Of a DNA stretch of 64,000 bases, positions 28,471 to 34,321 are shown in pieces. The stretch lies in assembly GCF_000367765.1 (NCBI RefSeq), contig NZ_AORI01000001.1:62001-126000 (forward strand), written 5' to 3'. The notes under the pieces are model-generated. The model ran no database searches, was not told where the DNA came from, and worked only from the letters and a program-made list of their open reading frames with translations. How positions within the stretch are numbered: the stretch's first letter is position 1; every line of letters starts with the position of its first letter. The position numbers and the translations under genes were made by a program. This DNA is from Metamycoplasma auris 15026. GTDB lineage: Bacteria; Bacillota_I; Bacilli_A; Mycoplasmatales; Metamycoplasmataceae.

Positions 28471-29236
28471 ATGATTAAGAAAATTGCATTACTACTAAGT
28501 TCATTTGTAACAATTAGTCCAACATTGATTGCTGCATCATGTCAAAATAGCAATAATGCCAATGTTGACAAATCAAATGATCCTAAAGAAAATAAATCAG
28601 AAAAAACTGCCAATGAAAAAGATACAAAGCAAAATTAAGGTGGTGTGTATACAACTCCAAAGTCAACTCCTGAAGGAATAATACCTGAAAAGGAAAATGA
28701 AAATGAAACTAATAGGGGGGGGGGTTGAGAGTCAACCATCTACTCCTAATTTAGGTGGTGAAGCTGAGTCAGAAAACTCATTAGGTGATTCTTCTTCAGG
28801 TATTGAAACTCCTGAAGAAAATAAACAAGAAGAACCACAAACTCAAGGTGATTCTTCAAATGAAATTACCAATGAATTACCGAATGAAAATGAAAAAATC
28901 CATAAGGAAAATGAAGATTTTTTCAATAAAATAAAGAAATACAATAAAGAAAAAAACGAAGCCTGAAAGGGTAAACAAGGTTCTTTAGGTCATAAGTTTG
29001 AAGACCACATTCGTAACTATGTTGATCTTGTTGGTTTTTCATCCCGTTTATTTGAAATTGTAGGTGACATAGCTGACTATAGCACATATTCAGAGTACAG
29101 ACAAAAAGAAAACTATACCGATTCAGAAGCTAAAAAAGATAATTCCAACTGAGCTGAAATAGTTAAAAACTATGAAAAAATAATGGATCCTTATATTCCT
29201 AAACTAAAAGAATTCGTTGAAAAAAACATTAAGTAA
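28471..29236 (+). pseudogene. Lipoprotein gene interrupted by a stop codon and a G10 tract
   Basis: ATG 28471 follows AGGAGA and starts a clear lipoprotein signal, MIKKIALLLSSFVTISPTLI, with lipobox IAASC. That frame runs into TAA at 28636 after 55 codons, yet coding-like Pro/Glu/Thr-rich sequence continues in the same frame to a run of ten G (28715-28724). After the tract the coding frame shifts: 28697-29236 encodes a further ~170 residues (VESQPSTPNLGGEAESEN... then an ordered C-terminal part ending KLKEFVEKNIK). A tract of 9 or 12 G would join the frames, but the TAA would still block translation. It is a decayed gene or a phase-variable one now off. Family not recognised. Confidence 0.7.
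28715..28724 (+). repeat. G10 homopolymer tract inside a lipoprotein gene
   Basis: Ten consecutive G in very AT-rich DNA. It would encode Gly-Gly-Gly in the coding frame and is the kind of tract that slips during replication. Confidence 0.95.
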
Positions 29237-29256: not shown

Positions 29257-29286
29257 AAAATCTAGGTCTAAAAAACCTAGATTTTT
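29257..29286. terminator. Bidirectional terminator after the broken lipoprotein gene
   Basis: AAAATCTAGGT / ACCTAGATTTT with a 7-base loop, A-run before and T-run after; its right end overlaps the stop of the convergent minus-strand gene. Confidence 0.85.
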
Positions 29287-29662
29287 AATTGATAAAAATT
29301 AATTTTGCTGTATTTCTTACAATAATATTTTTATTTTGTAATAAGTCATAAGTAAAAGAAATCTCTTCTTTGCTAATTATTACTTTAATTAAATATACTT
29401 CTAAAAAAATTCAATCTTTTTCTGAAATATTTAGTTTATTTTCAACATATTGATTTTTTTTCATACTTAGACTTTGGGCTGCATAACTAATATTAATTTC
29501 ATCATCACTAACATCTAGTACACAATGCATTCCTTTTTTATCATCAAATTCAATATGACTGAATTTGCCTTTTTCTTCTTCTAAAAAATCTACGTATTCT
29601 GTTTCAATGACTTTTTCTTCATAAGTGCTAAATGAAGAAATTAAAACGTATTTTAATTTCAT
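29285..29662 (-). CDS. Small hypothetical protein downstream of gltX
   Basis: A 125-residue cytoplasmic protein with alternating beta-strand patterns ([59 protein letters not shown]) and no signal or membrane segment. The size and all-beta look recall the DUF1934/YwiB calycin-like family, but I cannot confirm this. One UGA is Trp (EKDWIFL). Its ATG lies inside the end of gltX, overlapping by 10 bases, so it is probably translated from the same mRNA. The stop falls in the terminator. Confidence 0.7.
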
Positions 29663-31816: not shown

Positions 31817-33829
31817 ATGCAAATACGAATTCAAGAAGACATTAAAGATTGCGGACTTTATGCCTTGCAAGCAGTATACAAATTTTATTGAAAAAAATGG
31901 CTTGATATCAATAAATTAAAATACCTGTGTCCTTACTCACAAAATGGCATATCAATTGCAGATTTGATTGAAAGTGCAGAGCAACTTTCAATTGAAATTG
32001 AGCCATATAAGATTGCTTTTGATGAACTTATTTCAATGCAAATTACAAGCCCTTGTATTTCAATTATCAAGATTGATAATTTTATGCATTATATTATTAT
32101 AAAAAATATTAAAAATGGCTACGTAGAAACCTATGATTCAGTTAATGGCAAAAGAAAAATTAAACTCACTATTTTTAAAGAAATGTATACCAATATCATT
32201 CTTTTTACTAAAAAGAAAAAAGAAAAGAAATCCAATAAAGAATTTATTGAAAAATTTCGTCTTCCTTTCAAAATTTATTTTGGTTTTATTTTCTTTTTAA
32301 TCCTTCTTAGTTTAATCATTGTTTCACTGAATTTCTTTTTATCATTTATCAATAAGTTTATTTTTCTATACATTCAAAGTTTTGCATGAAACAATGCTTT
32401 AAAAAGTATTCTTTTTTTATTTTGAATATCTATTGCTTCAGTAATAGCTAATTTAGTAAGTGCTTTGTTTTTAAATTTTTTAAGGATAAATATTGCTAAA
32501 AAAATAAAAAATAATTTTATTTCAAAATTAGAAACTGGTAACTACAACCAAATAACTAAGATTGAACAAAACGAAATTATTTTAAGGTATTTATCAATCA
32601 ATATGATTTCTAATTTTTATGCTTCAATTTTAATCTTTTGGCCTACGCTTATTTTTACATTATCTTTCTTAATTCCGCTTATTTTCTATGTGAATTTGCA
32701 TTCAATAATAATTATTTTTAGTAGTAATTTAATAAAGGTGCTATTAACTTACTTAATTAATTCAAGAATATATCTAGCCTCAAAAAAATTGATTACTACT
32801 AATCTTAATGAAATAAATGAATTAAGTTTTTTAGCCAAAAACTATGAGCCTTATGGGAAAGAAGTTTGGAAAAATGTTTCCTTGTTTAACTATTATGACA
32901 CACTCAATCTTAATGCTTCAATTGAAAAAACAATTAATAAACTAAATGCCTTAAAAAACTCATTATATTCATTTTTTACAATTATTAGTAATAGTCTTAT
33001 ATTTTTAATTTTTATCAATATTAAAAATAGCAATATCTCAGATCTTCTTTTTATATTCCAATTGCAATCACTTTTGAATGAGCCTCTTAACAATTTTCAA
33101 ACATTTTTAACAGAAAAAAAGATTAATAGAATCAACATTGAACGTCTCTTTTTTATTCTGAATATTCCAAGCAATCAAAATATTGAAAAAGTGTCTTTAA
33201 ATGAAGAAATAAAAATGATAGAAATTAAGAATTTAAACTTTGGTTATTCATCTAAAAAAATTATTTCAAATATGAATTTAAATATTGATTCAAACTATGT
33301 TCTTGAAGGAAAAAATGGATCTGGAAAAACGACATTTTTAAAAATTCTTTCTGGTTTATTTTTTGATTTAAATAATAGTGTTTTAATTAATCAAATTCCG
33401 ATTGAAAAGATCGATAAAGATTGAATTGCAAATAACATTTTTATGATTGACAAAGATAATAATTTTCCTAATGTTGATTTATATACTTATTTGTTTTTTG
33501 AAATACCTGAACAACAAAAAAATGAAATACTAAAAAACAAAGAATTTATTAGTCTTTTAGAGAATTTAAATCTTGATTTATTTGCAAATTTATTTATGTT
33601 AAAAAACAAACTTTCCATGGGACAAATTCAAATAATAAAATTGCTTCCTTTGATGATTAGAAAATTTCAATTAATTTTACTCGATGAGTCATTAGAATTT
33701 ATTGCAAACAATCTTCTTGAAAAAATAAGAAATTTAATTTTAAAAAAACAAAAGACTTCAATATTTATTGAAGTAAGTCATACAAATAGATTCATCACAA
33801 AAGACCACAAAATTTATAAGTTTTTATAA
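31817..33829 (+). CDS. Peptidase-containing ABC exporter (C39 peptidase, membrane domain, ATPase)
   Basis: A 670-residue one-chain transporter of the bacteriocin/ComA type, which cuts double-glycine leaders from peptides and exports them. The N-terminal C39 peptidase starts IQEDIKDCGLYALQ with Cys12; His91 (NFMHYIIIKN) and Asp107 (VETYDSVNGK) complete the triad, spaced 79 and 16 residues, the same as in ComA. Hydrophobic membrane segments occupy about 150-400. The ATPase has Walker A GKNGSGKTT (about 498-506), signature LSMGQ (599-603), Walker B LILLDE (to Glu624) and switch His655. All motifs look intact. There is no clear ribosome binding site at ATG 31817. No precursor peptide or immunity gene is recognisable nearby. 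Confidence 0.9.
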
Positions 33830-33862: not shown

Positions 33863-34321
33863 ATGCGTATGAATAATTTGAATATAAAAAATTGCAGTCT
33901 TTTTGCATTTAAATTTAAGGAAGATTTTTTAACTATTTTAGCTGAGTCAAAGAGGGAATTTAATGCCCCCAAGGACATATCAGTTGACTTATTATTTGTA
34001 ACTAAATGTAAGATGAAAAAACTTAATTTCTTACACCGCCAAAAAAACTATACAACTGATATTTTAAGCTTTCCCTTAGAAGCACAAAAAGAACTCGATT
34101 TTTTAGAATTATTGGAACTTGGACAAATCATAATTTCACCTTGAAAAATAATTAAACAAGCTAAAGAATTTAATCATAGTTTAAGAAGAGAATTTTGTTA
34201 TATTTTTGCCCATGGAATTGCACATTTATTTGGCTTCGATCACCAAACAGAAGAAGAAGCTAAAATAATGAACCAACATGTAGAAAATATAATGCAAAGA
34301 TTAAATATTACAAGATATTAA
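33863..34321 (+). CDS. ybeY: Endoribonuclease YbeY (rRNA maturation)
   Basis: Metal-dependent RNase that acts in 16S rRNA 3' end maturation and ribosome quality control; 152 residues. The zinc-binding signature HGIAHLFGFDH is at 117-127 (consensus HGxLHLxGYDH). Upstream, NFLHRQKNYTTDILSFPL matches the conserved NxxYRxxxxxTDVLSFP. One UGA is Trp. A TATAAT at 33856-33861 would place the transcript start at or just after the first ATG, so translation may begin leaderless at ATG 33869 (MNNLNIKNCS) rather than 33863. It is 13 bases before era, a common ybeY-era pairing. Confidence 0.92.

Follow-up and report, generated by a model that had tools for sequence, protein, structure and literature searches.

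A candidate double-glycine substrate for the orphan C39-peptidase ABC exporter of Metamycoplasma auris and its relatives

Our comparison of sequences provides a strong candidate for the substrate of a common exporter previously noted as an orphan, together with a testable link to the control of recombination. The exporter, encoded at positions 31817-33829 of the window (the whole stretch of 64,000 nucleotides that was analysed, from contig NZ_AORI01000001.1 of Metamycoplasma auris 15026), is a PCAT1-like C39-peptidase ABC transporter, and its main, perhaps only, substrate is very probably a protein of some 80 residues whose single-copy gene is unlinked to it, in this genome a 79-aa ORF. The literature treats the missing substrate of mycoplasma C39 exporters as an unsolved problem. 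Gene 0401 of JCVI-syn3A was described as such a transporter, with no apparent double-glycine peptide there or in other mycoplasmas (PMC6609329), so that the orphan state itself is not new, and the missing substrate led the minimal-cell model to a guessed lipoate-importer role for this gene. With a named candidate for the whole order, a single peptide and a single peptidase domain suffice for a direct test of the substrate. If the candidate is correct, most mycoplasmas and their relatives would secrete a processed small protein that is so far unannotated or unexplained.

The exporter and its genomic surroundings

Under genetic code 4, the ORF on the + strand encodes 670 aa with four in-frame TGA codons read as Trp, and the following features were located on and beside it (window coordinates).

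31817-33829, + strand: C39-peptidase ABC exporter of the NF045998 / Mbov_0121 family (ORF, Pfam, NCBIfam and relationship to PCAT1)
31823-32221, + strand: peptidase C39 domain, residues 3-135 (Pfam PF03412, E 3.6e-22)
31850-31852, + strand: catalytic Cys12 (37 of 38 orthologues, a gap in the remaining one)
32087-32089, + strand: catalytic His91 (38 of 38 orthologues)
32135-32137, + strand: catalytic Asp107 (38 of 38 orthologues)
32270-33160, + strand: transmembrane domain of six long helices, about residues 152-448 (AlphaFold2 model)
33308-33334, + strand: Walker A, GKNGSGKTT, residues 498-506 (sequence and orthologue conservation)
33611-33625, + strand: ABC signature, LSMGQ, residues 599-603 (sequence and orthologue conservation)
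33671-33688, + strand: Walker B, LILLDE, with catalytic Glu624, residues 619-624 (sequence and orthologue conservation)
33779-33781, + strand: switch His655 (36 of 38 orthologues)
33863-34321, + strand: ybeY, the conserved downstream neighbour (Pfam and gene-order comparison)

The original prediction had described a complete C39-peptidase ABC exporter with no visible substrate, and had taken such a system as remarkable in a wall-less organism. Pfam, NF045998 and the conserved motifs agree with the first part: the protein also contains an ABC_tran domain (Pfam, E 1.3e-15), belongs to NF045998 with 559.2 bits against a curated cut-off of 500, and falls outside the TIGR01193 bacteriocin_ABC family (76.4 bits, cut-off 523.9). 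The proposed triad, with spacings of 79 (Cys-His) and 16 (His-Asp), is upheld by the alignment of 38 orthologues from the order, in which His91 and Asp107 are invariant and the only gap at Cys12 arises because the start of that orthologue was placed too late; GKNGSGKT, LSMGQ, LLDE and the switch His are likewise present and conserved. A transmembrane domain, a complete nucleotide-binding domain and a C39 domain with its Cys-His-Asp triad are found in one chain, as in a peptidase-containing ABC transporter (PCAT). PCAT1 is the best solved relative both by sequence and by fold, since a search with the AlphaFold2 model (mean pLDDT 82) placed it at the top (TMq 0.77, E 8e-30), substrate-bound forms included, although its identity to the M. 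auris exporter is about 20%. ComA has the same triad and spacing.

The second part of the description held within the window, where a profile scan of all six frames under code 4 yielded no double-glycine protein. The implied rarity among wall-less organisms did not hold, since the exporter is near-universal in the order, with a C39 match in 131 of the 148 genomes. In almost every relative examined, distant families included, ybeY and era follow downstream of the exporter. The space between exporter and ybeY holds a gene of 118-151 aa in the majority of the other genera, and several of these genes are members of NF045999 (MAG1140 family). Thus, the reported lack of a second transport gene is right for the M. 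auris genome (768 kb in 18 contigs), in which NF045999 has no match, but relatives carry one directly downstream. Most relatives' exporters resemble ComA, which has ComB, in being accompanied by a second small membrane protein, unlike the M. auris exporter. A model of a MAG1140-family neighbour displays one N-terminal helix and a beta barrel (pLDDT 87.7), and the barrels of MacA, EmrA, BesA and Spr0693 appear in its fold search, all with E >= 0.03 and none significant; a membrane-fusion protein of the HlyD/ComB type is a suggestion from this model. Note that NF045998 and NF045999 are both silent on what the pair does and what it transports.

Some loci displayed further peculiarities. In three relatives, the gene next to the exporter on its upstream side, in the same orientation, encodes a small protein with two hydrophobic segments (L035:9984-10349, L038:8172-8588 and L043:7918-8268); these were rejected as substrates, as they contain no GG, and the likeness of one to an ICE pilin (Mbov_0395 family) reaches E 0.03 only. 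In genome G050, presumably M. penetrans HF-2, the exporter does not lie beside ybeY, and upstream of it is a tandem array of five paralogues (152-187 aa) that contain coiled-coil-like repeats (locus L065). Two frameshifts interrupt the exporter gene in each of G004 and G016 (loci L060 and L061), the rest of which reads through, so that recent decay or sequencing error may be the cause. Within the window, 28471-29236 has the appearance of a lipoprotein gene that is either broken or phase-variable: an ORF with a lipoprotein signal peptide (28471-28638) precedes one of 179 aa that is read in a different frame, and about ten consecutive G occur near 28716. In addition, a 125-aa protein adjoining gltX (29285-29662) keeps its place in many congeneric genomes (cluster c7) and matches no family above cut-off.

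An unlinked double-glycine protein

The exporter's substrate is very probably encoded elsewhere in the genome, as an unannotated protein of 79 residues, MEKLNKEECNNLSGG|FAISAIITSILGALPLVFSTVASTASLIKSLSASKGEIKTKDFSAKWENEDNKMGFNVGFHYCV, where the bar marks the predicted cut after Gly15. Its gene is flanked by apparent lspA and rpmE genes.

G000:C9:47024-47263, - strand: double-glycine (GG) protein, 79 aa (profile search; another contig of the M. auris genome, outside the window)

The guess in the original prediction that the substrate might be a conserved, unannotated small peptide encoded elsewhere thus has a concrete candidate, but a leader-pattern search of the proposed kind turned out to be a poor tool. 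Our version of the pattern (hydrophobic residues at -12, -7 and -4 followed by GG or GA) gave 64 matches over the M. auris genome with no credible small peptide among them, and missed the candidate because its residue at -7 is Cys. Profile searches were required. TIGR01847, a leader model of 15 positions, was run on 40 relatives and gave weak matches that included five small proteins of like build. A profile of those five, none of which came from M. auris, found exactly one match in the M. auris genome (47024-47257 of the contig given above, - strand, E 2.3e-14) and one in each of 23 other congeneric genomes (24 of 24 with M. auris); an additional stray match occurred in G015 (E 0.4). The same M. 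auris ORF was again picked by a profile built from other families only (E 9.1e-8). No other leader-bearing small protein was found in this genome by pattern or profile search. Among Pfam and NCBIfam, no relevant model matches the M. auris protein, leader and bacteriocin models included, and some relatives' proteins match TIGR01847 weakly; its similarity to a model of a light-harvesting protein (19 bits against a cut-off of 335) was put down to chance.

The GG protein is the product of a real gene, as judged from its codons and start regions, since nonsynonymous change is well below synonymous change in 15 of 15 close pairs and a Shine-Dalgarno-like stretch precedes most copies. The M. auris leader has Met at -15, Leu at -12 and -4, and GG at -2/-1, as expected of a double-glycine leader. 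Among 100 family members, position -12 is hydrophobic in 97% and position -4 in 79%, whereas only 36% are hydrophobic at -7; position -15 is hydrophobic in 96% of the 79 members that are long enough, start codons having been set by a rule that may make some too short. Position -2 is Gly in 82% of the 100 members and otherwise Ala, Pro, Val or Thr. Gly or Ala at -1 was part of the rule for picking the site and was left out as evidence.

We infer leader binding, cleavage and export, as well as an exporter dimer and its topology. The hydrophobic residues of the leader MEKLNKEECNNLSGG would serve as contacts for the N-terminal C39 domain, which would cut after Gly15, and the remainder of 64 residues (a hydrophobic segment, then KGEIKTKD..KW..GFHYC) would cross the sole membrane, driven by ATP hydrolysis. 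The system would resemble that of PCAT1 and CtA in combining a one-chain C39-TMD-NBD exporter with a substrate that bears a double-glycine leader, as predicted here, and would differ from it in that the genes of substrate and exporter are far apart, both being conserved over the order.

Some relatives may export more than one protein with a GG leader, judging from their ORFs: two neighbouring ORFs of this kind are present in each of G101 (L373, L295) and G099 (L372), and two separate GG-protein matches in G088 (L374).

Co-occurrence and alternative explanations

The order-wide search for the GG protein used three profiles at a threshold of E <= 1e-3 on 148 genomes; none of these was specific to family f5 or f9, and an exporter was called broken on our own judgement from stops and coverage. 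The protein was found in 106 of the 119 genomes with an intact exporter, in 4 of the 12 with a broken or fragmentary one and in 1 of the 17 without an exporter. Fisher's test of the co-occurrence gives p 4e-12, a value uncorrected for relatedness and based on phylogenetically non-independent counts. The 13 exporter-bearing genomes without a match at this threshold include seven with weak ones up to 0.017, and either the profiles are insensitive or the protein is absent in some of them. Outside the order, the main profile gave short, weak matches only (best E 1.7e-4).

Genomes that lack a working exporter are natural experiments on the cut site. G115, the sole genome with the GG protein and no C39 match, has SGV in its leader, against SGG in the near-identical, exporter-bearing G105, a difference of one base (GGC to GTC) at the cut site. 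In G089, whose exporter is a pseudogene with many stops, EV replaces the GG that is present in the leaders of five sisters. Loss of the cut site does not always follow loss of the exporter, since G004, G016, G038 and G083, with broken or fragmentary exporters, retain GG or AG.

The exported peptide could be a bacteriocin against competing bacteria, since leader and length suit class II bacteriocins, the hydrophobic segment behind the leader could insert into membranes, and the cerein 7B class IIb model scores the protein of G127 exactly at its threshold (21.5 bits, cut-off 21.5). Bacteriocins are usually patchy in distribution and linked to immunity. The GG protein is single-copy and near-universal in the order, its gene has housekeeping genes of various kinds around it and no immunity-like neighbour that is conserved, and the M. 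auris protein matches no bacteriocin model, all of which makes this role unlikely. Because the protein is single-copy and nearly universal, a conserved surface or signalling peptide is more likely than a bacteriocin.

It is improbable that the exporter serves some other substrate, or many, with the GG protein merely co-distributed. The two genes are indeed unlinked (non-adjacent in the genomes examined), the 13 unmatched genomes would fit such an arrangement, and the genomes with two GG-leader ORFs hint at a wider substrate range. Against this, the GG protein bears the leader type recognised by this peptidase class, its cut site has changed in two genomes whose exporter is absent or defunct, and no further leader-bearing small protein turned up in M. 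auris. The import of lipoyl-lysine or lipoyl-peptide, with the peptidase domain transferring the lipoyl group, was put forward as a tentative model for gene 0401 of JCVI-syn3A in the absence of any known double-glycine substrate (PMC6609329), and is hardly credible for an exporter-type fold and motifs closest to PCAT1, now that a strong candidate for the supposedly absent substrate exists in most exporter-bearing genomes.

RrlA and a possible signalling circuit

In genome G045, which we take to be M. genitalium G37, the exporter gene spans about 491.5-493.5 kb, and the GG-protein gene lies just upstream of mraZ, mraW, MG_223 and ftsZ. The interval of the exporter gene is that given for MG_390 (PMC5745988), and from gene order we infer that the GG protein is MG_220. 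According to PMC9262362, mg220 is RrlA, a transmembrane sigma accessory protein, and both rrlA and rrlB are required for the activation of sigma-20 and of recombination, which involves a feed-forward loop. RrlA begins MYKLEKAQAKQVVGG, which suggests, as a prediction from its leader, that MG_390 exports it; this prediction transfers only weakly to M. auris. If it is true, RrlA, a recombination regulator, becomes a predicted secreted peptide.

The role of RrlA hints at a possible peptide-signal circuit. In a likeness to the system of ComA/ComB and ComC, a recombination-driving sigma factor of M. genitalium is reported to depend on MG_220/RrlA (PMC9262362); unlike ComC, the mycoplasma protein is longer than a pheromone. 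A ComC/ComAB-like circuit throughout the Mollicutes, in which the exported peptide would feed back on a sigma factor driving homologous recombination and DNA exchange in the manner reported for RrlA and sigma-20, is a speculative and rather doubtful extension.

The M. genitalium protein scores 130.7 bits with NF045747 (MPN313 family; cut-off 100) and is a member of it, and other proteins of its bacterial family resemble it; the function of NF045747 is unknown. Its mature part (family f3) is not alignable with that of the M. auris protein (family f1), the leader alone being aligned, and a homologous mature domain shared by RrlA and the M. auris protein is unsupported (hhalign 4.5%). For families f1 and f6, on the other hand, the profile comparison favours a shared ancestry of the mature parts (94.9%).
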